Below, in pieces: positions 26,693-39,391 of a stretch of 49,042 nucleotides of DNA. Location of the stretch: NCBI RefSeq assembly GCF_016632335.1, contig NZ_JAEPBG010000027.1, forward strand, positions 1-49,042, in the 5' to 3' direction. Position 1 is the first letter of the stretch. The number at the start of each line of letters is the position of its first letter. The notes below the pieces were generated by a model. The model made no database searches and was not told the DNA's origin. It was given only the letters and a program-made list of their open reading frames with translations. This DNA comes from Noviherbaspirillum pedocola. GTDB lineage: Bacteria; Pseudomonadota; Gammaproteobacteria; Burkholderiales; Burkholderiaceae_D. Position numbers and translations under genes: made by a program.

Positions 26693-26720
26693 TTGACATG
26701 CTTGGGGAAAAATGGATACT
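26693..26720 (+). promoter_or_regulatory. Sigma-70-type promoter of the amidase operon
   Basis: TTGACA (26693-26698) matches the -35 consensus perfectly. GATACT (26715-26720) is a fair -10 box (4 of 6) with a 16-bp spacer. Transcription would start near 26727 and give a leader of about 200 nt before the first gene. Confidence 0.65.
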
Positions 26721-26745
26721 CTCGATTCATTGGATTAATACACTC

Positions 26746-26829
26746 GTATCAGCCGCCAACAAAGTCGGCCGGGATACAAGGCAAAAAAGCCCTGAACAGA
26801 CGTTATTGCGTCTTTTCGGGGCTTTTTTT
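26746..26829 (+). promoter_or_regulatory. Leader attenuator: hairpin plus intrinsic terminator, probable AmiR target
   Basis: 26746-26777 folds as a hairpin (GTATC/GATAC and GCCG/CGGC). 26783-26829 is a very strong terminator: GCCCTGAA and AGACG arms paired with CGTCT and TTCGGGGC, one mismatch, a 6-base loop, A-run before and seven T after. A short alternative hairpin GGC-AAAAAA-GCC (26780-26791) would use the first bases of the terminator arm. No plus-strand gene lies upstream to need termination, and the operon encodes the ANTAR antiterminator AmiR, so this is best read as an attenuator. Loops with the usual A1/G4 ANTAR signature were not found. Confidence 0.7.
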
Positions 26830-26926
26830 GTCCGCAAATTTAGCGCTTTTGGGGAGCGTTAAAGAAGCATGATTGTGTTCCATCCCAATTGCCGTGTTGA
26901 TTACTCGAACAATGAGGAGACATCCA

Positions 26927-28120
26927 ATGAATAAGATTAATCGCCGCAAATTTCTTCAATCCAGCGCCACAATTCTTGCCGCCGGCGCTATTCCCGGATT
27001 TGCTCTCTCGCCCAAATCCGCTTTCGCTGCGGAAGGCGATACCGTCAAGCTCGGTTTGCTGCATTCGCTGACCGGAACGATCGCGCTTGCCGAGGCTTCA
27101 CTCGTCGATGCCGAGAAGCTCGCCATCGATGAAATCAATGCCGCCGGCGGCGTAATGGGTAAAAAAATCGAGCCCATCATTGAAGATGGCGCCAGCGATT
27201 GGCCGACTTTCGCAGAAAAAACCAAGAAATTGCTGGAAAGGGACAAAGTTGCCGCGATCATCGGCTGCTATACCTCGGCTTCCCGCAAGGCGATTCTGCC
27301 GGTGCTGCACCAGGGGCATGGGCTGCTGTATTACCCGACTTATTACGAAGGCCTGGAACAGGATAAATCCGTTATTTACACTTCGCAGGAAGCGACACAA
27401 TCGGTAATTGCCGCCATTGAATGGATGGCAAAACAGAACGGCAAAACGTTTTATCTTGTCGGATCCGATTATATTTATCCGCGCACCTGCAACAAGATTG
27501 CCAAGCCCACCATAGCCCGCCTTGGCGGAAAACTGGTCGGCGAGGAATACGCGCCGCTGGGCCATACCGAATTTTCTTCGATTATCAACAAGATCAGGGC
27601 CGCCAAACCGGACTGGGTTTATTCCACGGTCGTCGGCGGCAGCAACGTCGCTTTTTACAAGCAATTAAAGGCAGCCGGACTCGGCGGCGATAAACAGAAT
27701 CTTTTGTCGACTGTCGTTTCCGAAAATGAGATCGATGGTATTGGCAAGGATAATGCCGTCGGCTATTACGCCTGCATGGGGTATTTCGAAAGCCTGAAAA
27801 ACCCGCAAAACGAGAAATTCGTAAAAGCACTGAAGGCGAAATACGGGCAGAACCGCGTCGTCGGCGATCCCATGGAGTGCGCCTACAATTCGGTCTACCT
27901 CTGGAAGCTTGCCGTCGAAAAGGCGAAATCCTTTGACGTGGACAAGGTCATCGCGGCATCCCCGGGCATCAGTTTCGATGCGCCCGAGGGGACGATCCAG
28001 CTCGAACAGAATCATCATGTCGCGAAGAAGGTGCGTGTCGGCCGCGCACGCAGCGATGGCCAGTTCGACATCGTCTACGAATCTCCTGTCATGCAGCCGA
28101 ATCCATTCCCGAAGCTTTAA
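26927..28120 (+). CDS. Amide/urea-type ABC transporter substrate-binding protein (UrtA/FmdD group)
   Basis: 397 residues from the ATG at 26927, after a GAGGAGA site. A twin-arginine-like signal (NRRKFLQSSATILAAGAIPG) is followed by a type-I periplasmic-binding fold (Peripla_BP_5) starting VKLGLLHSLTGTIALAE. Segments such as IGCYTSASRKAILPVL, YYPTYYEGLEQ and VGSDYIYPRTCNKI characterise the UrtA/FmdD/AmiC branch, which binds urea, formamide or short amides. It is the first gene of the operon, about 100 bases after the leader terminator. It is visibly related to the AmiC sensor encoded 7.5 kb downstream, so importer and sensor probably see the same ligands. Confidence 0.92.
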   Translation: MNKINRRKFLQSSATILAAGAIPGFALSPKSAFAAEGDTVKLGLLHSLTGTIALAEASLVDAEKLAIDEINAAGGVMGKKIEPIIEDGASDWPTFAEKTKKLLERDKVAAIIGCYTSASRKAILPVLHQGHGLLYYPTYYEGLEQDKSVIYTSQEATQSVIAAIEWMAKQNGKTFYLVGSDYIYPRTCNKIAKPTIARLGGKLVGEEYAPLGHTEFSSIINKIRAAKPDWVYSTVVGGSNVAFYKQLKAAGLGGDKQNLLSTVVSENEIDGIGKDNAVGYYACMGYFESLKNPQNEKFVKALKAKYGQNRVVGDPMECAYNSVYLWKLAVEKAKSFDVDKVIAASPGISFDAPEGTIQLEQNHHVAKKVRVGRARSDGQFDIVYESPVMQPNPFPKL

Positions 28121-28191
28121 GACGGGCGTGATCGCAGGCCGGGGCCGCATTCAGGCCCCGATCCGACTTCCATTTCATGGCAGGGGCCCCT

Positions 28192-29094
28192 ATGTCCTTT
28201 TCCACGATATTGATTCAGTTATTCAACGGGCTCAGCCTGTTTACCGTGCTGCTGCTCATGGCGCTCGGCCTGGCCATCGTGTTTGGCTTGATGGGCGTCA
28301 TTAATATGGCGCACGGCGAATTAATGGCGCTCGGCGCCTATATCACCTATCTCACCGCGCAGTTCTTCTCGCGCTATCTGCCATCGCTGATGGGGATCTA
28401 TCTGTTCGTCGGCATTTTTCTCGCCTTTGCGGTGACATTCGCTTTCGGCTACCTGCTGGAGCGCGGCTTTATCCGCTGGTTTTACAACCGCCCGCTCGAC
28501 ACGCTCCTCGCCACCTGGGGCCTGAGCCTCATCCTTCAGCAAACCTATCGCTCGATTTTCGGCGCCCAGGAAGTCTCGGTGCCGCTGACATCCTGGTTGA
28601 GCGGCGCCTGGGCAATTACGCCGGACATTGAACTGCCGCTGAATCGCCTCTTCATCATCGGGCTGACGATCGTCGTCGCTTTCGGCGTCTACCTGGTGCT
28701 GTACAAGACACGGCTCGGCCTGCGCGCCCGCGCCGTCACGCAGAACCGCGCCATGAGTTCGGCGGTCGGCATCGACACGAACCGGGTCGACGCGCTGACC
28801 TTCGCGCTCGGTTCGGGCCTTGCCGGCATTGCCGGCGCAGTCTTCACGATGATCGGCTCGACCAATCCCGGCACCGGCCAGGCCTATATCGTCGATTCCT
28901 TCATCGTCGTCGTGTTCGGCGGCGTCGCCAGCCTGTTCGGCACGGTTTCCTCGAGCTTCCTCATCGCGCAGTCGCAAAGCACGCTCGAGTATTTGATGAG
29001 CGGCTCCATGGCCAAGGTATGCATCCTGCTGTTCGTCATCGCGGTGCTGTATTTCCGGCCCAACGGGCTCTTTTCGTCGAAAGTCAGGAGCTGA
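28192..29094 (+). CDS. Branched-chain/urea-type ABC permease (LivH/UrtB)
   Basis: 300 residues from the ATG at 28192 (an alternative ATG at 28177 adds five residues). About eight hydrophobic helices. The GLAIVFGLMGVINMAHGELMALGAYITYL block is diagnostic of LivH/UrtB permeases, and AFGSGLAGIAGA-like and FGGVASLFGTV segments follow. It forms the inner-membrane channel together with the next permease. It lies 71 bp after the binding-protein gene and 1 bp before the next gene. The long N-terminal extension seen in some UrtB proteins is absent. Confidence 0.93.
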   Translation: MSFSTILIQLFNGLSLFTVLLLMALGLAIVFGLMGVINMAHGELMALGAYITYLTAQFFSRYLPSLMGIYLFVGIFLAFAVTFAFGYLLERGFIRWFYNRPLDTLLATWGLSLILQQTYRSIFGAQEVSVPLTSWLSGAWAITPDIELPLNRLFIIGLTIVVAFGVYLVLYKTRLGLRARAVTQNRAMSSAVGIDTNRVDALTFALGSGLAGIAGAVFTMIGSTNPGTGQAYIVDSFIVVVFGGVASLFGTVSSSFLIAQSQSTLEYLMSGSMAKVCILLFVIAVLYFRPNGLFSSKVRS

Positions 29095-29095
29095 C

Positions 29096-30130
29096 ATGCG
29101 CACCCTGGAAAAAAGGGCCGAGCCCATCGCGCACCTGAGCATCGCGGCGCTGTTGCTGCTGGTGCTGCCGGCCACGCTCAATCCCTTCTGGCTCTCGGCC
29201 GTGGGCAAGTACCTCTCCTTCGCCTTCGTGGCGATCGGCATCGTGCTGGCATGGGGATACTGCGGCATTCTGAGCCTGGGCCAGGGCATCTTCTTCGGAC
29301 TGGGCGGCTACATGATGGCAATGTTCCTGAAGCTCGAAGCCTCGGGAACGGAGCTGCCGGACTTCATGAGCTGGAGCAGCGTGGAAAAGCTGCCCGCATG
29401 GTGGGAGCCGTTCCACCACTTCAGCTTCACGGTGGCTGCGATTCTCGTGGTTCCTGCGCTGGTTGCCTTTCCGTTCGCCTATCTCGTCTTCAAGAAACGT
29501 GTCAGCGGCGTGTACTTCGCCATCGTGACGATCTCGCTGGCCCTGGCGATGACGGTGATGATCGTCGGCCAGCAGGGCGAGACCGGCGGCGCGAACGGCA
29601 TTACCGATTTCAGCACCCTGCTCGGCATGGAGATCACCAGCGAGGCCAGCAAACGCTATGTGTACTTCGTTGAAGTCGCCTTGCTGATCGTGGCCATGGC
29701 GCTCAGCGCCGCGCTTTTGCATACCCGCTTCGGGAAGATCATGATCGCGGTGCGCGATCGGGAAGATCGTGTTCGCTTCTCCGGATATGACACCGCCATG
29801 ATCAAGGCATTCGTCTTCACGATTGCCGCGATTCTCTCTTCCGTCGGCGGCGCGCTGTTCACCTTGCAGGTCGGCTTGATCACGCCGACGCTGGTCGGCT
29901 CGGTGGCTTCGGTAGAAATGGTGATCTATGCCGCGCTGGGCGGCCGGCTCTCGGTGCCGGGCGCTGTGATGGGCGCGCTCGTCGTCGGCTTCCTGAAGTC
30001 CTATCTTTCGGAGCAGTTTCCGGAAAGCTGGCTGTTCTTCCTGGGAGCGATGTTCATCATCGTCGTCGCTGTGATGCCGAATGGATTGGCAGGCGCGTTG
30101 CAGCGGCTGTTGCGAGTGAAGGCCTTATGA
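29096..30130 (+). CDS. Branched-chain/urea-type ABC permease (LivM/UrtC)
   Basis: 344 residues, about eight to ten hydrophobic segments. LAWGYCGILSLGQGIFFGLGGYMMAM is the LivM/UrtC signature; GVYFAIVTISLALAM and the cytoplasmic loop RFGKIMIAVRDREDRVRFSGYD, which contacts the ATPase, are also present, as is GGRLSVPGAVMGA near the end. It pairs with the LivH/UrtB-type permease encoded just upstream. The stop overlaps the next start (ATGA). The large periplasmic loop after TM3 (about 85-105) is UrtC-like and supports urea/amide rather than branched-chain amino acid transport. Confidence 0.93.
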   Translation: MRTLEKRAEPIAHLSIAALLLLVLPATLNPFWLSAVGKYLSFAFVAIGIVLAWGYCGILSLGQGIFFGLGGYMMAMFLKLEASGTELPDFMSWSSVEKLPAWWEPFHHFSFTVAAILVVPALVAFPFAYLVFKKRVSGVYFAIVTISLALAMTVMIVGQQGETGGANGITDFSTLLGMEITSEASKRYVYFVEVALLIVAMALSAALLHTRFGKIMIAVRDREDRVRFSGYDTAMIKAFVFTIAAILSSVGGALFTLQVGLITPTLVGSVASVEMVIYAALGGRLSVPGAVMGALVVGFLKSYLSEQFPESWLFFLGAMFIIVVAVMPNGLAGALQRLLRVKAL

Positions 30131-30942
30131 GGATGAGCATGCCCACCATGACCACTGTTCCGGCCGGCAGCGCCGCCAATGGAGCGCTTGACGTTCTTGC
30201 GGATACCGCAACGCAGGTGCTCGCCGTTGAAAACCTGACCGTTTCCTTCGACGGTTTCAAGGCGGTCGATGACCTGAGCATGCAGATCGCGGAAAAGGAA
30301 CTGCGCGTCGTCATCGGGCCGAATGGCGCGGGCAAGACCACGCTGCTCGACATGATCTGCGGCAAGACCAGGCCGACCTCCGGCAGCATCCGCTTCCGCG
30401 ATATCGAACTCACCGGCCTGCCTGAATTCCAGATCGTGCGCCGCGGCGTGGGCCGAAAATTCCAGAACCCGTCGATCTACGAAGACCTGACGGTGGCGGA
30501 AAACCTCGAGATTTCGATACCGCAGGCGCATGGCATCTGGGCCTCGGTCTTCTTCAAGCGCACGGCGCAGGTGAAGGAACGCATCTGCAGCGTAGCCGAG
30601 CAGATCATGCTCGCCGCGCATCTGAAGACCAAGGCCGGCACGCTATCGCATGGTCAGAAGCAATGGCTCGAGATCGGCATGCTGCTGGTGCAGGAGCCGG
30701 AACTGCTGCTTCTCGATGAACCGGTGGCCGGCATGTCGCCGCGCGAGCGCGAGCAGACGGCCGAGCTGCTGAAGTCGATCGCGCTCGGCAAGTCGCTCGT
30801 CGTGATCGAGCACGACATGGACTTCGTCAAGTGGATCGCCAATCGCGTCACGGTCCTGCACCAGGGGAAGCTGCTCTCGGAAGGAACCATCGATGAAGTG
30901 CAGGCCGATCCACGCGTCATCGAAGTGTATCTCGGTCATTGA
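30127..30942 (+). CDS. ABC transporter ATP-binding protein (LivG/UrtD type)
   Basis: 271 residues. Walker A GPNGAGKTT (64-72), the signature LSHGQKQWLEIGM in the LivG/UrtD variant form, Walker B LLLLDEPVAGM, and the switch His in VIEHDMDFV. A 30-residue N-terminal extension rich in Ala/Thr precedes the nucleotide-binding fold, as in UrtD. It starts within the stop codon of the permease gene (ATGA), which suggests coupled translation. A second start codon shortly after (ATG at 30133, 30139) is possible. It energises import with the LivF-type partner encoded next. Confidence 0.94.
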   Translation: MRMSMPTMTTVPAGSAANGALDVLADTATQVLAVENLTVSFDGFKAVDDLSMQIAEKELRVVIGPNGAGKTTLLDMICGKTRPTSGSIRFRDIELTGLPEFQIVRRGVGRKFQNPSIYEDLTVAENLEISIPQAHGIWASVFFKRTAQVKERICSVAEQIMLAAHLKTKAGTLSHGQKQWLEIGMLLVQEPELLLLDEPVAGMSPREREQTAELLKSIALGKSLVVIEHDMDFVKWIANRVTVLHQGKLLSEGTIDEVQADPRVIEVYLGH

Positions 30943-30953
30943 GGAGAACTGCC

Positions 30954-31643
30954 TTGCTGAGCATTTCCGATATCGATGTCTGCTATGGCGAGAGCCAGGT
31001 CATCCATCATGTTTCCCTCGACCTGCCCGACGGCTCGGCGACCGCCGTCGTCGGCCGCAACGGCATGGGCAAAAGCACCCTTCTGAAATCCCTCATCGGC
31101 ATGGTGCCGACCCGTGCCGGCCACATCAGCCTGGACGGCCGCAACATCGCGGGACTGCCAAGCTACAAGCGGGTGCAGGCGGGGCTGGCCTTCGTGCCGC
31201 AGGGCCGCATGATCTTTTCGCAGCTGACGGTGGAGGAAAACATCCTCACCGGGCTGGAAACCGGTCGCTACCCCGGCATCCCGGATTTCATCTACCACTT
31301 CTTCCCGGTGCTGCGGGAAATGAAGAGCAGAAAGGGCGGCAACCTGTCGGGCGGCCAGCAGCAGCAGCTGGCCATTGCACGGGCGCTCGTATCCAAGCCC
31401 AAGGTGCTGATCCTCGACGAACCCACGGAGGGGATACAGCCTTCCATCATCAAGGAAATCGCGCGCTCGCTGAATGCACTGCGCGCCGAGCTGGGAATCG
31501 CCATCCTGGTCTCGGAGCAGGTGCTCAGCTTCGCGCTGGAAGTCGCCGACCGCGTCGCAGTCATCGATCGCGGCCGGATTGTGCGTTGTGACGACAAGGG
31601 CAGTCTGGACCTGGAAGCAGTTCGGTCTTATCTCACGGTGTGA
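30954..31643 (+). CDS. ABC transporter ATP-binding protein (LivF/UrtE type)
   Basis: 229 residues from a TTG at 30954, which lies 7 bases after a perfect GAGGAG; an in-frame TTG at 30939 would remove that site from use. Walker [10 protein letters not shown] (34-42), signature [15 protein letters not shown], Walker [14 protein letters not shown], and the LivF/UrtE-specific [17 protein letters not shown]. The His switch is replaced by Gln (SEQVLSFAL), as is usual in UrtE. It is the partner of the preceding ATPase, giving a five-gene importer of the HAAT/urea class. Confidence 0.93.
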
Positions 31644-31675
31644 GCAAAGGCCATCTTTTACCTGAGGAGAAAGCA

Positions 31676-32713
31676 ATGAGACATGGAGACATCTCGAGCA
31701 GCAAGGATTGCGTGGGCGTGGCGGTGGTGAACTACAAGATGCCGAGCCTGCACACCAAAGCGGAAGTCCTTGCCAATGCGCGCAACATCGCCAACATGGT
31801 GGTCGGCATGAAGCGCGGCCTGCCGGGCATGGACCTGGTGATCTTTCCCGAGTATTCGACGCACGGCATCATGTACGACTCCAAGGAGATGTACGACACC
31901 GCCGCCGCGATTCCCGGAGAGGAAACCGAGATCTTTGCCGAGGCCTGCCGCAAGGCCAACGTCTGGGGCGTGTTCTCGCTGACCGGCGAGCGCCACGAAG
32001 AGCATCCGAAGAAGGCGCCGTACAACACCCTGATCCTGATGAACAACAAGGGCGAGATCGTGCAGAAGTACCGCAAGATCATGCCCTGGGTGCCGATCGA
32101 GGGCTGGTATCCGGGCGACTGCACCTATGTTTCCGAAGGCCCGAAGGGCATGAAGATGAGCCTGATCATCTGCGATGACGGCAACTATCCGGAAATCTGG
32201 CGCGACTGCGCCATGCGCGGCGCCGAGCTGGTCATCCGCTGCCAGGGCTACATGTACCCCGGCAAGGAGCAGACGATCCTCGTCTCCAAGGCCATGGCAT
32301 GGATGAACAACGTCTATGTGGCAGTGGCCAACGCGGCCGGCTTCGACGGCGTGTATTCCTACTTCGGCCATTCGGCCATCATCGGCTTCGACGGGCGCAC
32401 GCTGGGCGAATGCGGCGAAGAGGAAATGGGCATCCAGTATGCCGAGCTGTCGACATCGATGATTCGCGATGCGCGCAAGAACATGCAGTCGCAGAATCAC
32501 TTGTACAAGCTGCTGCATCGCGGCTATACCGGGAAGATCAATTCCGGCGAGGATCCGAACGGTGTGTCCACCTGCCCATACCAGTTCTATGGCAAGTGGA
32601 TCAGCGATCCTGAAGGCACGCGCAAGATGGTCGAGGCGATGACACGCTCCACGCCGGGCACCGAGGAAGCGCCGATCGAGGGCATTCCCAACGAGTCGTC
32701 CGCGCATCGCTGA
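31676..32713 (+). CDS. amiE: Aliphatic amidase AmiE
   Basis: 345 residues from the ATG at 31676, after a GAGGAG site. The sequence begins [20 protein letters not shown] and is close to Pseudomonas aeruginosa AmiE throughout. The nitrilase-fold catalytic triad is in place: Glu59 (FPEYS), Lys134 (QKYRKI) and Cys166 ([11 protein letters not shown]). AmiE hydrolyses short-chain amides such as acetamide or propionamide to the acid and ammonia in the cytoplasm as a hexamer; formamidase AmiF is the nearest alternative. It lies 32 bp after the importer genes, so import, hydrolysis and regulation are in one transcript. The C-terminal tail differs most from the Pseudomonas enzyme. Confidence 0.93.
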
Positions 32714-32762
32714 TCGCAATACGGGGGCTGCGTGATGCAGCTCCCGGAACATGGAGCCGCGA

Positions 32763-33572
32763 ATGAACGAACAGATCCGGGGCTATCTCGTCGAAGCGAA
32801 GCCCTATTACAAGCCGGTGGCAAACGAAGTCGAGCTGTTCCGCGCCGCCTATGGCCGGCGCATGCCGATGATCCTGAAGGGGCCCACGGGATGCGGCAAG
32901 ACGCGCTTCATGGAATTCATGGCGTGGAGCCTGAACAAGCCGCTGATCACGCTGGCCTGCAACGAAGACATGACTGCGTCCGACCTGGTGGGACGCTATC
33001 TGCTCGACGCCGACGGCACCCGCTGGCACGATGGCCCGCTCACCGTGGCGGCGCGCCATGGCGGCATCTGCTATCTCGATGAAGTCGTGGAAGCCCGCCA
33101 GGACACCACCGTCATCATCCATCCGCTCACTGATGACCGTCGCATTCTTCCGCTCGACAAGCGCGGCGAGCTGGTCCATGCCCATCCCGATTTCCAGCTC
33201 GTGGTTTCCTACAATCCGGGATACCAGAGCGCGACCAAGGACCTGAAGCAATCGACCAAGCAGCGTTTCGGCGCCATCGAATTCCATTACCCCAAGCAGG
33301 CAGAGGAAACCGCGATCGTCGCGCATGAAAGCGGCGTCGGTGACGACATTGCCGCCAAGCTCGTTGGTATCGCGCACCGGTCGCGCGGGCTGCGCGGCCG
33401 TGGGCTGGAGGAAGGCATCTCCACCCGCATGCTGATCCATGCCGGGCTGCTGATCGCCGACGGGATAAAACCGCGTGAAGCCTGCGCGCTTGCCATGGCA
33501 AAGCCGATCACGGATGACGAAGACATGACACAGGCGCTGAACGGGTTCATCGAAGCCTATTTCGGACCCTAG
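32763..33572 (+). CDS. MoxR-family AAA+ ATPase (NorQ/CbbQ type; AmiB-like position)
   Basis: 269 residues from the ATG at 32763. Walker A GPTGCGKT (40-47), Walker B GGICYLDEVVEA, sensor region LVVSYNPGYQ, and a C-terminal CbbQ_C-like part (EEGISTRMLIHAGLLI). NorQ/CbbQ proteins form rings that, with a VWA partner, remodel or activate enzymes such as NO reductase or Rubisco. Here the VWA partner follows 9 bp later, and the pair sits between amiE and amiC. In Pseudomonas the corresponding position holds amiB, also an ATPase, so this may be its counterpart; orthology is not shown here. The target may be AmiE or the importer. Confidence 0.88.
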   Translation: MNEQIRGYLVEAKPYYKPVANEVELFRAAYGRRMPMILKGPTGCGKTRFMEFMAWSLNKPLITLACNEDMTASDLVGRYLLDADGTRWHDGPLTVAARHGGICYLDEVVEARQDTTVIIHPLTDDRRILPLDKRGELVHAHPDFQLVVSYNPGYQSATKDLKQSTKQRFGAIEFHYPKQAEETAIVAHESGVGDDIAAKLVGIAHRSRGLRGRGLEEGISTRMLIHAGLLIADGIKPREACALAMAKPITDDEDMTQALNGFIEAYFGP

Positions 33573-33581
33573 GAAGCGGCC

Positions 33582-35606
33582 ATGGATGCCAATTCGGCCG
33601 TGCGCGAAAGAATGGACGATCGCCTCGAGGCAATCAGGGCGCGGGATGCCACGGCGTACGAGGCGCTGACTGCGGCGCTTCCCGGCATTGCGCGCGCCGC
33701 CGGCGGCGCCGTCATGCTCGAGCCGGTGCTTGCGCTCTGCGCGGACATCGTCGCGCAGGACGGCGGTCAGCTCGCCGCGCTTGCGCCGCGCCTGGAATAC
33801 CTGCTCGACCGCCTGGATACGCCGGCGCTGCACCGCTGGGTGCTTACAGGATTGCGCCTGTATCCGAATCATCCGGCGCTGCTGAGCCGGTACTGGGATC
33901 TGTCCGACCCGGCGGCAGCGCGCAGCCTCGAGCTCGAAGCCGAAGGGGTATCGCTGGCGCGCCGGCGCAATGCGCTGCAATACGTGCTTGCCGGCTTTGG
34001 CATGCCGAATCTCGACATCAAGCCATGCAGGCAGGATGCGCTGAACGCGCTTGCGCGGCGCAGCGCGATCAGTGATGGCGTGCTGCTGCTTCCCGAGCAT
34101 TACCTGGCGATCGATGGCGCGGCCTGTGGCGACATTTACCTGGCGGCGGTGACCCACGCGCTGGCGCATCTGCGCTTCTCGCCGCGCCACCAGCCTGCCG
34201 GCCGGCGCAAGCCCATGCACCTGGCCATACTTGGACTGATAGAAGATGCCCGGGTCGAACGCCTGATGTGCCGGGACTATCCGGGCCTGCATGCGCTCTG
34301 GGGCAATTTCCATACCGCTTCCGGCGAGCGCAACGAGCTCGATATCGCTTCCCTCACCGCTCGCCTGGCACGCGCGATACACGACGCTTCCTACAGCGAT
34401 CCGAACCACTGGGTCAACAAGGGCCGGGACCTCTTCGAGCAATGCGCATCGGACCTGGAACGGCTCGATGCGTTCAACGAGGTCGCGAGCATCCTGGCCA
34501 ATGACCTCGGGCAGATGCGGGTGCGCTTCGTGCCGGAGCAGTACCGGACAACCCCGGCGTACCGCGACGACAACACGCTGTTGTGGGAATTTGATACGGA
34601 CAGCCAGCAGACGCCGCCGGACGAGGCATTGGCGCGCGAGTCGGTGCAATGGATACCGCGCGAGCAGGAGGCTGCCGATGTCCCGAAGATATCGCCGGTG
34701 CTCTCGACCGAGCGCGAAGTGCTGCGCTATCCCGAATGGGATTGCCGGATCTCGCAACTGCGCCCTGACTGGGCCACGATCATTGATGCGCCGGCGCCCT
34801 CCTGGCCCGGCAACATGGACCAGCGACCCGCCGCCCCGCCCGGCCTGCCACGGCGCGCAGTCACGCCGCGGGCGCGCCTGCTGGACCGGGCGCTGCGCAT
34901 GCGGCGCCAGCATGAGGGCGAGGAGCTCGATCTCGATGCCGCGATCGAAAGCCGTGTCAGCATGCGCGGCCGGATGACGCCGGATCCGCGCATATTCCAG
35001 CGGCCCGGAAAGCGGCGCAGAACCCTCGCGATCCTGCTCCTGCTCGACCTGTCGGAATCGACCAATGACCGTATCGCCGGCAGCTTCACCTCGGTGCTGG
35101 ATCTGGAGAAGCAGGCGGCGCGGCTGCTTGCCGAATCGGCTGATCCGCATGCCGCGCGCATTGCCATCCATGGCTTCGCATCCAACGGCCGCAATGAAGT
35201 GAGGTACACCCACATCAAGGAATTCGACGTGCCGTTCGGCGACGCGCAGTCGCGCTATCTGGCACGGCAGCAGGGCAGCCTGTCGACCCGGATGGGCGCC
35301 GCGCTTCGTCATGCGCAGGCCTGCCTGGCGCGCGAAACCGCTGAAAAGAAGGTGCTGATGGTGCTGACCGACGGCGAGCCCTCGGATATCGATGTCGTCG
35401 ACCGGGAGTACCTGATCGAGGATGCGAGGCATGCCATAGACGCGTTGTCGCTCAGAGGCATCGATGCATTCTGTCTCACGCTGGATCGGCGCGCGGACCG
35501 CTATGTGCGGAGAATATTCGGTGACTGGAACTTCCTGATCATCGACAATGCCGTGTCGCTGCCGCATCAGCTTGCGCGCTCGGTCGAACGCATCATCGGC
35601 CGTTGA
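33582..35606 (+). CDS. NorD/CbbO-type VWA-domain protein
   Basis: 674 residues. The long N-terminal helical part (about 1-430) has segments seen in NorD/CbbO proteins (HALAHLRFSP, LGLIEDARVERLM, YPGLHALWGNF). The C-terminal von Willebrand A domain (about 480-670) carries an intact MIDAS: DLSES (489-493), a Thr in the STRMG loop, and TDGEPSD. Such proteins bridge a MoxR ATPase ring to its client through a metal-bound acidic residue. No membrane segment or signal peptide is present. The 9-bp gap to the AAA+ gene supports complex formation. The client is unknown. The frame is intact despite a very long antisense shadow frame. Confidence 0.88.
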   Translation: MDANSAVRERMDDRLEAIRARDATAYEALTAALPGIARAAGGAVMLEPVLALCADIVAQDGGQLAALAPRLEYLLDRLDTPALHRWVLTGLRLYPNHPALLSRYWDLSDPAAARSLELEAEGVSLARRRNALQYVLAGFGMPNLDIKPCRQDALNALARRSAISDGVLLLPEHYLAIDGAACGDIYLAAVTHALAHLRFSPRHQPAGRRKPMHLAILGLIEDARVERLMCRDYPGLHALWGNFHTASGERNELDIASLTARLARAIHDASYSDPNHWVNKGRDLFEQCASDLERLDAFNEVASILANDLGQMRVRFVPEQYRTTPAYRDDNTLLWEFDTDSQQTPPDEALARESVQWIPREQEAADVPKISPVLSTEREVLRYPEWDCRISQLRPDWATIIDAPAPSWPGNMDQRPAAPPGLPRRAVTPRARLLDRALRMRRQHEGEELDLDAAIESRVSMRGRMTPDPRIFQRPGKRRRTLAILLLLDLSESTNDRIAGSFTSVLDLEKQAARLLAESADPHAARIAIHGFASNGRNEVRYTHIKEFDVPFGDAQSRYLARQQGSLSTRMGAALRHAQACLARETAEKKVLMVLTDGEPSDIDVVDREYLIEDARHAIDALSLRGIDAFCLTLDRRADRYVRRIFGDWNFLIIDNAVSLPHQLARSVERIIGR

Positions 35607-35697
35607 GCGCTTGCGATGAAAACCATACAATCCGGTCAGGTTCCGCAACAGCTGCTCCTACCGGCTCATTGCGTAGCGGTGGAAAAGGAATGCCAGA

Positions 35698-36855
35698 ATG
35701 CAAAAGCGTGATCCCATCAAGGTAGGAATCCTGTATTCATGGACCGGCGTCACTTCGCAGATCGAATCCTCGCAGCGTCTCGGCACGCTCCTGGCGATCG
35801 AGGAGATCAACGGCGCGGGCGGCATCAATGGCAGGGAGATCGTTCCGGTCATGTACGATCCGCAGTCCAGTCCACCCAAGTACCGCGAACTCGCGGAACG
35901 TCTTGTCTCCATCGACGGCGTCAAGGTCATCTTCGGCTGCTACATGTCGAGCACGCGCAAGGCGGTCATACCGGTGGTCGAGAAGCGCAACTGTCTATTG
36001 TTCTACGCGACGCTGTATGAAGGTTTCGAGTACTCGAACAATCTGATCTACACCGGCGCCGCTCCCAATCAGAACAGCGTGCAGCTGGCCGAATTCATGA
36101 CATCGACTTTCGGTCCACGCGTGTATCTGGTCGGGTCCGACTACATCTATCCCTATGAATCCAATCGGATCATGACCGACCTGGTGATGCAGCATGAAGG
36201 GGGCGAGATACTCGGGAAGAGCTATGTGCCGCTCAACGCCGGTGAGAAGGACTTCGCGCGCATCGTCGAGGACATCCGGGTCAAGCAACCGGATTTCATC
36301 TTCTCGACCGTGGTCGGCAACGCGACCAAGCATTTCTACCGCGCCTATGCGGAAGCCGGACTCGATCCGGGCAAGCTTCCGATCGGCAGCCTGACGACCT
36401 GCGAAGTCGAGGTCGCGCAGATGGGAGCCGATATCGCCAACGGGCACTACACCTCGTCGCCGTACTTCCAATCCATCGATTCCGCGGTCAACCGGGCTTG
36501 CGTGGAAAAATTCCAGCGCCGCTTCAATGGCGAGGCCATGCCGAACGCATGCTGGGAAGCCGCTTATTTCCAGGTGCATCTGTTCGCCGACGCGATGCGG
36601 CAAGCCGAAACCGATGATCTCGATGCGCTGATGCCGCGCCTGCTCGGCGCCGAGTTTCAGGCGCCGCAGGGCCTGGTCAGGATAGAGCCTTCGAATCACC
36701 ACACCATGCTTTACCCACGGATCGGCCGGGCAAATCTGCAGGGGCAGTTCACGATCGTGCGGGAATCTCAACGCCCGGTGGTGCCCGACCCTTATCTCGT
36801 TTCCCACTCGCTGGGTGACTGGACTGTTGCGCTGAGTACGCTGGAGGCGGAATGA
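35698..36855 (+). CDS. amiC: AmiC, amide-sensing negative regulator
   Basis: 385 residues, the length of P. aeruginosa AmiC, without a signal peptide, so cytoplasmic. The periplasmic-binding-protein fold starts IKVGILYSWTGVTSQIESSQ. The ligand-pocket segments FGCYMSSTRKAVIPVVE and LLFYATLYEGFEYS closely follow the known AmiC pocket, and VGSDYIYPYESNRIM continues the family pattern. Known AmiC binds AmiR and silences it until acetamide or a similar amide is bound. It overlaps amiR by 4 bases (ATGA). A 91-bp gap separates it from the VWA gene. It shares its architecture with the operon's own exported binding protein. Confidence 0.93.
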   Translation: MQKRDPIKVGILYSWTGVTSQIESSQRLGTLLAIEEINGAGGINGREIVPVMYDPQSSPPKYRELAERLVSIDGVKVIFGCYMSSTRKAVIPVVEKRNCLLFYATLYEGFEYSNNLIYTGAAPNQNSVQLAEFMTSTFGPRVYLVGSDYIYPYESNRIMTDLVMQHEGGEILGKSYVPLNAGEKDFARIVEDIRVKQPDFIFSTVVGNATKHFYRAYAEAGLDPGKLPIGSLTTCEVEVAQMGADIANGHYTSSPYFQSIDSAVNRACVEKFQRRFNGEAMPNACWEAAYFQVHLFADAMRQAETDDLDALMPRLLGAEFQAPQGLVRIEPSNHHTMLYPRIGRANLQGQFTIVRESQRPVVPDPYLVSHSLGDWTVALSTLEAE

Positions 36856-37493
36856 ACCGGGATCGATTCCAGGCCAAGCTCGTCAATCCGCCCTATCGCG
36901 CCATCCCGCAGATCATGAAGGATCTGCGCACGCTGCAAGTGTGCATCTTTCATCCTCGCGACGAAGATGGCGAAAGTCTCACGAAACAGATAGAGCGCAT
37001 CGGTTGCAAGGTCCACGCCTTCTGGCCGCCGCCATGTGAACTGCCGCCCGGGACAGACCTGGTATTCATGGCCGTGAACCCCGACATGATCAACCATAAT
37101 TTCGAGTGGTCCCGGGGAGATGAAGCGCCGGCGGTGATCGCGGTGGTGACTTACGAGAATCCGACGATCATCGAGGCGGTGTTGCGCATGGGCGCGAAAG
37201 GCGTCATCGCTTCCCCGATCCGTTCCTTCGGCATTCTGAGCGCCCTGGTATTGGTACGGGAAGTCGCCAACGACATCAGGAAGCTGCGCCGCCGGGTGAA
37301 CCGCCTCGAGGAAAAGATCGGCGGCATGCGCGTTCTCAACGAGGCGCAGGAAATCCTGTGCCGGCAGCGTGGCATCTCCAAGGACGAGGCGTACCGCGTG
37401 ATCCGCGATCAGGCGATGAGCAAGCGGGTGACTGCCGAATCCATTGCGGCAGCGATCATCCAGGCCAATGACGTCCTCTCATTCAAGTCCTGA
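36852..37493 (+). CDS. amiR: AmiR, ANTAR-domain transcription antiterminator
   Basis: 213 residues. The N-terminal pseudo-receiver domain (about 25-135) lacks the usual phospho-acceptor Asp context (LVFMAVNPDM), as in AmiR. A coiled-coil linker (VREVANDIRKLRRRVNRLEEKIGG) leads to the C-terminal ANTAR RNA-binding domain (about 160-213): LNEAQEILCRQRGISKDEAYRVIRDQAM. AmiR allows readthrough of the leader terminator when AmiC releases it. It is the last gene of the operon, overlapping amiC, so the two are made together. The likely target is the terminator at 26783-26829. No terminator was seen after the gene. Confidence 0.93.
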   Translation: MNRDRFQAKLVNPPYRAIPQIMKDLRTLQVCIFHPRDEDGESLTKQIERIGCKVHAFWPPPCELPPGTDLVFMAVNPDMINHNFEWSRGDEAPAVIAVVTYENPTIIEAVLRMGAKGVIASPIRSFGILSALVLVREVANDIRKLRRRVNRLEEKIGGMRVLNEAQEILCRQRGISKDEAYRVIRDQAMSKRVTAESIAAAIIQANDVLSFKS

Positions 37494-37729: not shown

Positions 37730-38008
37730 CGCATCGATGCCGGCCAGCAGGCCTCGCGTAGCGCGGGGCAGGCACACGCCGATGCGGACATGCGCGCTGC
37801 GTTGGTTTTGCGTGCGTGGGAAGAAAGCCGGCACATGGAAGTGCTCGCGGGCATGGTGCGCGCCTTCGGCATTGCGCTGGCGCCGGAAACGCCCTACCCG
37901 CTGCCGCGGCTGGTGCGGCTGGTGCGGCTGGTGCGGCTGGTGCGGCTGGTGCTGCGATTGCTGTATGGGCTGCGCGGATTGCGGAGGATGGTGGGGGCGT
38001 GGGCGTGA
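37730..38008 (+). pseudogene. Possible remnant of a ferritin-like helical protein
   Basis: In one frame the segment ADMRAALVLRAWEESRHM followed by EVLAGMVRAFGIALAPETPYPLP resembles a piece of ferritin-like or ferroxidase-type helices (E-x-x-R/H-H pattern). It then runs into a Leu-Val-Arg repeat generated by the 9-bp tandem repeat. There is no proper start or family-complete C-terminus. I treat it as a fragment; identity is uncertain. Confidence 0.3.
37907..37951 (+). repeat. Tandem repeat, five perfect copies of CGGCTGGTG
   Basis: Five uninterrupted 9-bp units, in frame with the possible ferritin-like remnant (encoding R-L-V). Copy number is probably variable through replication slippage. 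Confidence 0.95.
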
Positions 38009-38605: not shown

Positions 38606-38643
38606 ACGCGTGCCGCGGTTCCATTGCCTGCGGCACGCGTTTT
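38606..38643 (+). terminator. Rho-independent terminator of the PsiF-repeat gene
   Basis: A perfect 11-bp stem (ACGCGTGCCGC/GCGGCACGCGT) with a 13-base loop is followed by TTTT. It lies 50 bases after the stop codon. Confidence 0.88.
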
Positions 38644-38761
38644 AATCGGGCAAGCCGGAACCTGCACCGCCAGTGAAAGTCGAACCGCGGCGCGCCGCGC
38701 CGGATACCGCTCACTCCGGCAGCGGCCTTTGCCCATTTTTTCTTTCGTGGAGGTGCGTCAG

Positions 38762-39391
38762 ATGCGATTCATTCGGGCTGTGGCGGCATGCGGATGCCTG
38801 TGCCTGGCGACGTTCGGTTCCGCCCATGCGGCGCTCGTTGCCAATGGCGACTTTGAGACCGGCAATTTGTCCGGGTTTGCGATTTCCGCGGCCGGCGGCG
38901 GTTTCGTCGGTGTCGATGCCGAAAGCCCGCACACCGGGACCTACGGCGCCTTCTTTGCCGGCGTCGATCCCAATGCGCCCGATACGATCACGCAGACCAT
39001 CGCCACCGTGCCAGGCAACAGCTACCTGGTCAGTTTCTTCCTGCAGAGCGAGGCCGCAAGCGCGCCGGACAATGCCTTTTCCGCGCAATTTGCCGGCGCT
39101 ACGCTGCTGACGCTGTCCAACGATGCGGGCTTTGACTACCGCCAGTTTTCGCAGACCGTGGTCGCGGCTTCGCCGCAATCGCTGCTGAGCTTCACGGGTT
39201 ACAACGCGCCGACGGCTTTCGATCTCGATGACATCAGCATCGTCGATGTGACACCGGCGGCCGTATCCCCATCCCCGTTACAGCCCTTGCCCGAGCCGGG
39301 CAGTGCGGCACTGTTGCTGAGCGGCGCGCTCGCCCTGCTGCGTCGGCGCGGCGCGAAGATTCAGAGCCAGGAACCAAGCGAATCCGCTTGA
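38762..39391 (+). CDS. PEP-CTERM-anchored exported protein
   Basis: 209 residues from the ATG at 38762, preceded by GGAGGTG. A signal peptide (cleavage near AHA-ALV, residue 24) precedes a beta-sandwich-like body (NGDFETGNLSGF, ITQTIATVPGNSYLVSFFLQ, AFDLDDISI), a carbohydrate-binding or DUF642-like pattern common among PEP-CTERM proteins. The C-terminus has LPEPGSAALLLSGALALL followed by RRRG, the sorting signal cleaved by exosortase EpsH-type enzymes. The tail continues 12 residues after the Arg cluster, longer than usual. No exosortase gene is visible in the window. Probably surface or exopolysaccharide associated. Confidence 0.85.
   Translation: MRFIRAVAACGCLCLATFGSAHAALVANGDFETGNLSGFAISAAGGGFVGVDAESPHTGTYGAFFAGVDPNAPDTITQTIATVPGNSYLVSFFLQSEAASAPDNAFSAQFAGATLLTLSNDAGFDYRQFSQTVVAASPQSLLSFTGYNAPTAFDLDDISIVDVTPAAVSPSPLQPLPEPGSAALLLSGALALLRRRGAKIQSQEPSESA

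Follow-up and report, generated by a model that had tools for sequence, protein, structure and literature searches.

Why should an operon for the uptake and hydrolysis of aliphatic amides encode an ATPase of the MoxR type, together with a protein carrying a von Willebrand factor A (VWA) domain? The question is raised by positions 1 to 49,042 of contig NZ_JAEPBG010000027.1 of Noviherbaspirillum pedocola (assembly GCF_016632335.1), a stretch referred to here as the window. Between positions 26927 and 37493, ten genes follow one another on the forward strand with small gaps. They encode an importer of five proteins (UrtA to UrtE), the amidase AmiE, an ATPase of the CbbQ/NorQ type, a VWA protein, the amide sensor AmiC and the antiterminator AmiR. 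This list was first drawn up in an earlier reading of the DNA letters (the sequence-only reading), and the family and domain matches collected in Table 1 bear it out.

The ATPase/VWA pair probably services the neighbouring amidase. The best overall explanation, to which we give a probability of about 0.75, is that the locus is an amide-induced operon equipped with a remodelling machine of the kind that CbbQ and CbbO (CbbQO) form as an activase of Rubisco, and that this machine would be dedicated to AmiE and engage it by its C-terminal tail. The arrangement is not a matter of chance, because the identical ten-gene order recurs in Glaciimonas immobilis (L009) and in loci L010 and L011, and because the trio of amiE, ATPase gene and VWA gene occurs three times in the source genome itself. 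This genome encodes three proteins with a CbbQ_C domain, and all of them adjoin an amiE: one in the window, one on contig C17 by a urease cluster, and one on contig C2 by FmdA.

Linkage of amiE to the ATPase/VWA pair, and the AmiE tail

AmiE, and not the pair, was used as the query in searches of 300 genomes of the order and 343 of the family (E 1e-150), and of 299 genomes of the phylum and 369 of the class (E 1e-130). These gave 125 amiE loci, 42 from the order with a further 18 from the phylum, 13 from the class and 52 from the family, the window being one of them. Each locus was taken with flanks of up to about 10 kb, as far as the contig reached, and its neighbourhood was mapped by tblastn with the window proteins, from which a very diverged pair could escape.

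In 57 of the 125 loci, the VWA gene, the ATPase gene or both are close to amiE and share its strand (31/42 from the order, and 3/18, 9/13 and 14/52 of the additions from phylum, class and family, respectively). The functional link between pair and amiE that the sequence-only reading had proposed thus came through this survey of co-occurrence unrefuted. When four duplicate contigs are taken away and eight loci that came from searches with VWA or AmiC are added (L009-L012, L106-L108 and L110), there are 61 distinct linked loci, 49 of them with both genes, ten with the VWA gene only and two with the ATPase gene only. The strand of amiE is always shared by the VWA gene (59 loci) and by the ATPase gene (51 loci). 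The ATPase gene is present in 39 of the discovery loci, and in 26 of these it starts 20-609 bp downstream of amiE. Some linked loci are on plasmids, namely those of Agrobacterium tumefaciens MWF001, Paraburkholderia aromaticivorans, Shinella sumterensis and Rhizobium etli 8C-3; on the last of these an acetate-CoA ligase gene adjoins the VWA gene. AmiC/AmiR, the importer, urease and FmdA are each found in some pair-bearing loci and not in others.

It is worth adding that a urease cluster lies by amiE and the pair on contig C17 of N. pedocola (L013:11676-16661) and in 13 loci of other genomes (e.g. L056). The urease of these clusters has fused gamma and beta subunits, of about 230 residues.

The C-terminus of AmiE makes it very probable that AmiE is the client of the pair, by way of its tail. 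The penultimate residue is histidine in all 61 distinct linked loci and in 3 of the 68 without the pair; the residue after it, in the linked loci, is Arg or Lys in 58, Ala in two and Gln in one. Among the discovery loci the counts are 41/41 where the pair, or one of its two genes, is nearby and 3/26 where neither is; in the first later set they are 20/20 linked and 0/17 unlinked, and in the final 25 family loci, which are all without the pair, 0/25. The 62 distinct loci taken after the tail rule had been seen give 20/20 linked against 0/42 unlinked. Duplicates (L049, L135, L138 and L140) were excluded from the tail counts, and the AmiE of L171, which ends KHVA, was counted as without. If the eight loci from the VWA and AmiC searches are left out, the linked count becomes 53/53. 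Fisher's test of tail against linkage for the first 104 loci, which are related to one another, gives p = 1.2e-25, and His344 is the most discriminating column for linkage in the AmiE alignment.

Among the candidate clients, only AmiE bears a C-terminal His-Arg/Lys of the CbbQO type. The other proteins of the 104 loci contribute 801 tails, of which none ends in this way and six have a penultimate histidine; UrtA to UrtE, AmiC, AmiR, urease subunits and FmdA were counted, and none of them ends HR or HK. Rubiscos encoded next to CbbQO pairs served as a positive control: 10 of the 11 end HK or HR, while the eleventh ends NR, a variant of the Rubisco tail that appears in the available text of PMC8718961. 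Rubisco large subunits linked to cbbQ and cbbO share a C-terminal HK/R, and passages of PMC4660213 report that activation is abolished when the tail is shortened by one or two residues or extended by one. According to the same passages, the last residue can be replaced, whereas the penultimate histidine can be replaced only partly, by aromatics. Carboxysomal form IA Rubiscos without cbbQO have no motif and are generally two residues shorter, as stated in part of PMC8718961. To judge from the sequences, the AmiE tail behaves like that of CbbQO-linked Rubisco, being present with the pair and mostly missing without it.

The nearest solved relatives of the window ATPase are CbbQ (PDB 5C3C, 411 bits; 6L1Q, 394 bits), followed by NorQ (9QHD, 297 bits). 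The sequence-only reading had pointed out that MoxR/VWA pairs usually activate metalloenzymes; with the ATPase closer to a Rubisco activase, this rule is less than the best guide. In a tree of 63 ATPase rows, the clade that contains the window ATPase is well supported; it comprises 12 amiE-linked rows and the first Agrobacterium pair, and it falls on the side of the tree that holds the CbbQ of form-I Rubisco. Other amiE-linked rows are on the side of rows labelled 'nor', a label not confirmed by norB. A single amiE-linked clade of NorQ is not supported: the tree has five label changes, of which well-supported branches force at least three, and the CbbQ of form-I Rubisco is interleaved. Since the amiE-linked rows are not one clade, the partnership of amiE and ATPase would have arisen, or been exchanged with Rubisco, more than once. 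A fourth class of CbbQ with no Rubisco association is described in the available part of the CsoCbbQ work (PMC4633670).

The window VWA protein matches NorD (9QHD) with E 1.3e-35 over residues 381-673, and the VWA domain of NorD is the best fold match to its structure model (mean predicted local distance difference test score, pLDDT, 78). All five residues of the metal ion-dependent adhesion site (MIDAS) are present in 56 of the 59 amiE-linked VWA proteins, two of the others being cut, and they are invariant in 30 chosen VWA relatives. They were scored by alignment columns, a regular expression (LDxSxS, found in 31/41 amiE-linked rows) having missed some proteins. MIDAS mutants of CbbO, in the available text of PMC4660213, were with one exception active as ATPase, yet gave no activation of Rubisco.

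A second ATPase/VWA pair lies downstream of AmiC/AmiR on the plasmid of A. tumefaciens MWF001 (CP129670.1; L106:7379-11962), in a stretch that also encodes a GTP-binding protein, a ferredoxin-domain protein and CbtAB. Directly upstream of this pair there is an open reading frame (ORF) of 564 residues, weakly tubulin-like, which ends -HA and is a candidate further client. The neighbours of the pairs in L115 (genome G065) and L116 (G190) were also scanned; they include a patatin-like protein (L115) and a transaldolase, and there is no HR or HK tail on the listed neighbouring ORFs.

Proposed action of the pair and its alternatives

On the basis of these observations, we infer the following course of events. 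AmiC would sense the amide and free AmiR, which would let RNA polymerase past the leader terminator, so that importer, amidase and pair are made together. The UrtABCDE-type importer would take in the amide (or urea), and AmiE would hydrolyse the amide. The ATPase ring and its VWA adaptor would recognise AmiE by the His-Arg tail, together with a surface carboxylate bound at the MIDAS, and the complex would then spend ATP on remodelling AmiE, in the way that CbbQO needs the tail of the Rubisco large subunit. The most likely outcome would be that inhibited active sites of AmiE are reopened, and the chances that the pair is an 'amidase activase' in this sense seem to us about even. The blocked state may be guessed to be a carbamoyl adduct on the catalytic Cys166, formed from urea or cyanate, which would agree with how often urea-type importers and ureases are found alongside. 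Urea inhibits the Pseudomonas amidase. A search of open-licence PMC papers for a urea or carbamoyl block of AmiE yielded nothing beyond one formamidase title, in a reference list; that paper, of 2019, reportedly concerns a cysteine carbamoyl switch in formamidase.

The closest alternative is that the pair acts on AmiE as a chaperone of assembly or maturation, similar to NorQ and NorD (NorQD), and uses the same tail with no reactivation. This is possible, though we hold it only tentatively. The linkage and the tail data fit it equally well. Against it, AmiE is not known to require a metal or cofactor, and the ATPase is closer to CbbQ than to NorQ. The precedent is that nitric oxide reductase depends on NorQD for the insertion of its iron, according to passages of PMC13036017 and PMC9976466, and assembly or activation of the amidase is suggested in the available text of PMC13209695. 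A related AmiE is nevertheless functional in Escherichia coli: with a plasmid described as carrying amiE of Pseudomonas aeruginosa, which is of the AmiB type, E. coli grows on amides, amiB being unmentioned in the available text of PMC5467163. Our preference for reactivation over assembly is based on this function of the P. aeruginosa AmiE in E. coli, and on the pair having activases as its closest relatives.

The result in E. coli also counts against a dedicated machine, as it seems that a helper is not obligatory for the P. aeruginosa AmiE, and further observations weigh on that side. The pair is missing from 68 of the 125 amiE loci, and 60 of these have no AmiB either, so that many AmiE manage alone. 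The ten loci with only the VWA gene are without a nearby ATPase gene, although their genomes all encode CbbQ elsewhere, and there are CbbQ-like pairs that accompany neither amiE nor Rubisco (L115 and L116). A penultimate histidine occurs with no pair nearby in L060 and L078 (both HR, in genomes that hold CbbQ elsewhere) and in L080 (HG, with amiE 910 bp from the contig end and no CbbQ_C match in the genome). In the alignment, one amiE-linked VWA protein lacks the MIDAS residues. The structure model of AmiE (mean pLDDT 61) was of insufficient quality for locating the tail and was not used. Of the 39 ATPase genes in the discovery loci, the other 13 lie 4.6-5.9 kb downstream of amiE, with urease genes in between. 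Finally, the independent contrasts in the tail data are few, there being only six supported pairs.

The small number of contrasts, and the fact that related genomes dominate the counts, would be expected if tail and linkage merely reflected the joint inheritance of old gene blocks, with no interaction between the proteins. However, on an AmiE tree built leaving out the last 20 residues, linkage changes about ten times and the tail about nine times, and five or six of the six supported pairs are concordant while none is discordant (p 0.03-0.06). The AmiE motif moreover equals the motif tested in CbbQO. Joint inheritance is therefore an unlikely explanation. It is also quite unlikely that the pair serves a nearby metalloenzyme, urease or FmdA, and that amiE is adjacent only through the clustering of amide and urea genes. 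The 13 loci just mentioned, and others with FmdA nearby, speak for such a role, but the window operon encodes neither urease nor FmdA, none of the counted tails of either ends HR or HK, and many FmdA or urease loci are without the pair. Least likely of all is that the pair serves the importer or the complex of AmiC and AmiR, both of them candidates by position in the same operon, since the stretches from a Klebsiella plasmid (L109) and Paraburkholderia caribensis (L111) have AmiC, AmiR and an importer without the pair, L082 has AmiE, AmiC and AmiR without it, the pair occurs without AmiC/AmiR nearby in L013 and L014 (the other two copies of N. pedocola) and elsewhere, and none of the counted tails of UrtA to UrtE, AmiC and AmiR ends HR or HK.

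The sequence-only reading had named AmiE, the importer and the AmiC-AmiR complex as possible clients. The tail and the co-occurrence favour the first; on the same two grounds the importer and AmiC/AmiR are rejected, as are urease and FmdA. The L109 and L111 stretches also encode an FmdA-like amidase, and no close AmiE.

Operon layout and leader

Table 1. Features of the amidase operon and its leader, in window coordinates
Feature	Position	Strand	Evidence
Sigma-70-like promoter, TTGACA-16-GATACT	26693..26720	+	Consensus scan; upstream of leader
Two short hairpins (26752-26769, 26780-26791), candidate AmiR (ANTAR) antiterminator	26752..26791	+	
Intrinsic terminator, bases common with second hairpin	26783..26829	+	-32.5 kcal/mol, 67-base stretch ending T7
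UrtA-type substrate-binding protein, twin-Arg-like signal (by eye)	26927..28120	+	TIGR03407 508.1 bits, cut-off 492.75
UrtB permease	28177..29094	+	TIGR03409 394 bits, cut-off 250.3
UrtC permease	29096..30130	+	TIGR03408 411.8 bits, cut-off 296.2
UrtD ATPase	30127..30942	+	TIGR03411 373.1 bits, cut-off 304.1
UrtE ATPase	30939..31643	+	TIGR03410 319.9 bits, cut-off 285.8
AmiE aliphatic amidase	31676..32713	+	NF009802 709.6 bits, cut-off 427; PDB 2PLQ, 2UXY matches
Codons of AmiE C-terminal His-Arg, proposed handle for ATPase/VWA complex	32705..32710	+	
CbbQ/NorQ-type MoxR AAA+ ATPase, Walker A GPTGCGKT, Walker B YLDEV	32751..33572	+	AAA_5 + CbbQ_C
CbbO/NorD-type VWA adaptor, MIDAS D489/S491/S493/T569/D597	33582..35606	+	Pfam VWA
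AmiC amide sensor	35698..36855	+	Peripla_BP_5; best solved match PDB 1PEA, E 4.1e-99
AmiR ANTAR antiterminator	36852..37493	+	AmiR_N + ANTAR; PDB 1QO0 chain D, E 7.6e-26

The catalytic residues Glu59, Lys134 and Cys166 are all present in the window AmiE, and no signal peptide was seen by eye on AmiC. The channel protein AmiS had been reported missing by the sequence-only reading, and PF02293 (AmiS/UreI) indeed has no match in the genome, although 14 control genomes also gave nothing over the cut-off, so that the sensitivity of the search is not demonstrated. Clp-type AmiB has no match in the window. The operon contains no Rubisco gene and no norCB or other nitric oxide reductase gene, genome-wide searches for Rubisco and norB not having been made.

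The structure of the leader fits antitermination of the whole operon by AmiR, the ATPase/VWA pair included, and AmiR would act on the two hairpins in front of the terminator. The second hairpin and the terminator overlap, the 3' arm of the former serving as the 5' arm of the latter, and the terminator has a counterpart in the 12 leaders that were aligned. These 12, out of 14 leaders examined, have the two-hairpin element, and none was found in L047 and L141 within the 330 bases taken. Across the alignment 92.6% of the hairpin cells are paired, helix 1 has compensatory changes on both sides in eight cells, and the covariation score is reached by 0 of 500 shuffles. The number of pairs with a change on both sides is two, and as many are seen in 215 of the 500 shuffles; helix 2 is invariant, and hence provides no proof by covariation. 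A G at loop position 4 is canonical in ANTAR antiterminator loops; among the first loops here, only about half have it. Rfam gave weak and implausible matches only for the leader. The promoter-like site in Table 1 begins at 26693, which is also where the operon starts in the sequence-only reading; the consensus scan that yielded it found three such sites, with 3.5 expected in shuffles.

Downstream of amiR there is a perfect 9-bp tandem repeat of 5.2 copies (37906-37952), and further on an ORF (38624-39391) with a PEP-CTERM-like tail, recognised by eye (..PEPGSAALLLSGALALLRRR..).

AmiB and comparison with known systems

An AAA+ protein beside amiE is recurrent, and it is of two kinds. In eight gammaproteobacterial loci (L097-L101 and L172-L174), a relative of AmiB is encoded 31-111 bp downstream of amiE; the three that were scanned match AAA_2 and ClpB_D2-small, and AAA_5 more weakly. 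AmiB as a close relative of NorQ was considered and rejected, since its best BLASTP match to the NorQ set has E 0.002 over 64 residues and AAA_2 comes first in Pfam. By their sequences, AmiB and the CbbQ/NorQ-type ATPase are both AAA+ proteins, of different kinds. AmiB as an obligate partner of AmiS was rejected as well, PF02293 being found in 0/8 of the AmiB-type genomes, with no positive control over the cut-off. The amiB gene of P. aeruginosa (PA3365) is annotated 'probable chaperone' in the available text of PMC10213629. In the eight AmiB loci, AmiE has [KEV]E[KR] within its last nine residues (8/8, against 0/96 of the other AmiE in the 104-locus set), a pattern that was written after the tails had been seen and in loci that may be one lineage.

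These data raise a more general idea, which might equally turn out right or wrong. The C-terminal His-Lys/Arg may be a portable client code of CbbQ/NorQ-VWA machines, acquired for the purpose of reactivation by unrelated enzymes (Rubisco of forms I and II, AmiE, and perhaps others such as the tubulin-like -HA protein of Agrobacterium); the amidase, like Rubisco, may have recruited several AAA+ activases (CbbQO-type and the Clp-type AmiB), each of which would read its own tail. In the case of Rubisco, several convergent AAA+ activases are described in the available text of PMC5437159. MoxR/VWA pairs are widespread and mostly without a known client, and in this case a client is indicated by sequence alone, along with a recognition tag that is proven for Rubisco. 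If this is true, AmiE, which is soluble, well studied and easily assayed, would be a simple model for how such ATPases work, AmiB, the little-studied ATPase of the textbook operon, would gain a possible role, and further clients could be sought by means of the tail code.

The closest arrangement in print is the ami operon of plasmid pYu-LOS15-16 of Pseudomonas veronii Yu15 (PMC13209695, May 2026), where amiE, a NorQ-like gene, a NorD-like gene, amiC and amiR form one operon. The available text notes homologues in Burkholderiales and proposes that the two proteins are possibly involved in assembly or activation of the amidase. The combination, which the sequence-only reading had believed to be functionally undescribed, is thus already published as far as these five genes go, with no test of the pair in the text in question. 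The genes are the same five as in the window, their order not being spelled out there, and the text likewise does not mention the importer, the tail motif, the client logic of CbbQO or the comparison with AmiB. Among the open-licence PMC papers listed by the searches, none was found that deals with the AmiE tail or connects CbbQO with an amidase. The novelty appears to lie in the client and its handle, and not in the operon of five genes or the idea of assembly or activation.

The importer resembles those encoded by urtABCDE and by fmdDEF, the latter being an amide-urea importer. UrtA to UrtE of the window are all above the family cut-offs, with amide or urea as the predicted substrate; in contrast to these systems, the window importer shares an operon with AmiE, AmiC and AmiR. 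NorQ and NorD, which act in the maturation of cytochrome c nitric oxide reductase, have the MoxR/VWA architecture in common with the pair, and the VWA fold matches NorD best, whereas the ATPase is less similar (297 against 411 bits) and the window operon has no nitric oxide reductase gene. The amiEBCRS operon of P. aeruginosa also has AmiE, AmiC, AmiR, antitermination and a gene for an AAA+ protein between amiE and amiC (available text of PMC5259723 and PMC10213629); there, however, the AAA+ protein is the Clp-type AmiB and not a MoxR/VWA pair, and AmiS is found in place of an ATP-binding cassette importer.

The system most like this one is the Rubisco activase CbbQO. In both cases an AAA+ protein with a CbbQ_C domain and a VWA protein with a MIDAS are encoded downstream of a client that ends HK/R, and in both cases homologues of the client that are without the pair are mostly without the motif, and often end earlier. 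The difference lies in the client, which here would be AmiE, a hydrolase of the nitrilase superfamily unrelated to Rubisco, and for which the role of the pair as an activase is predicted.

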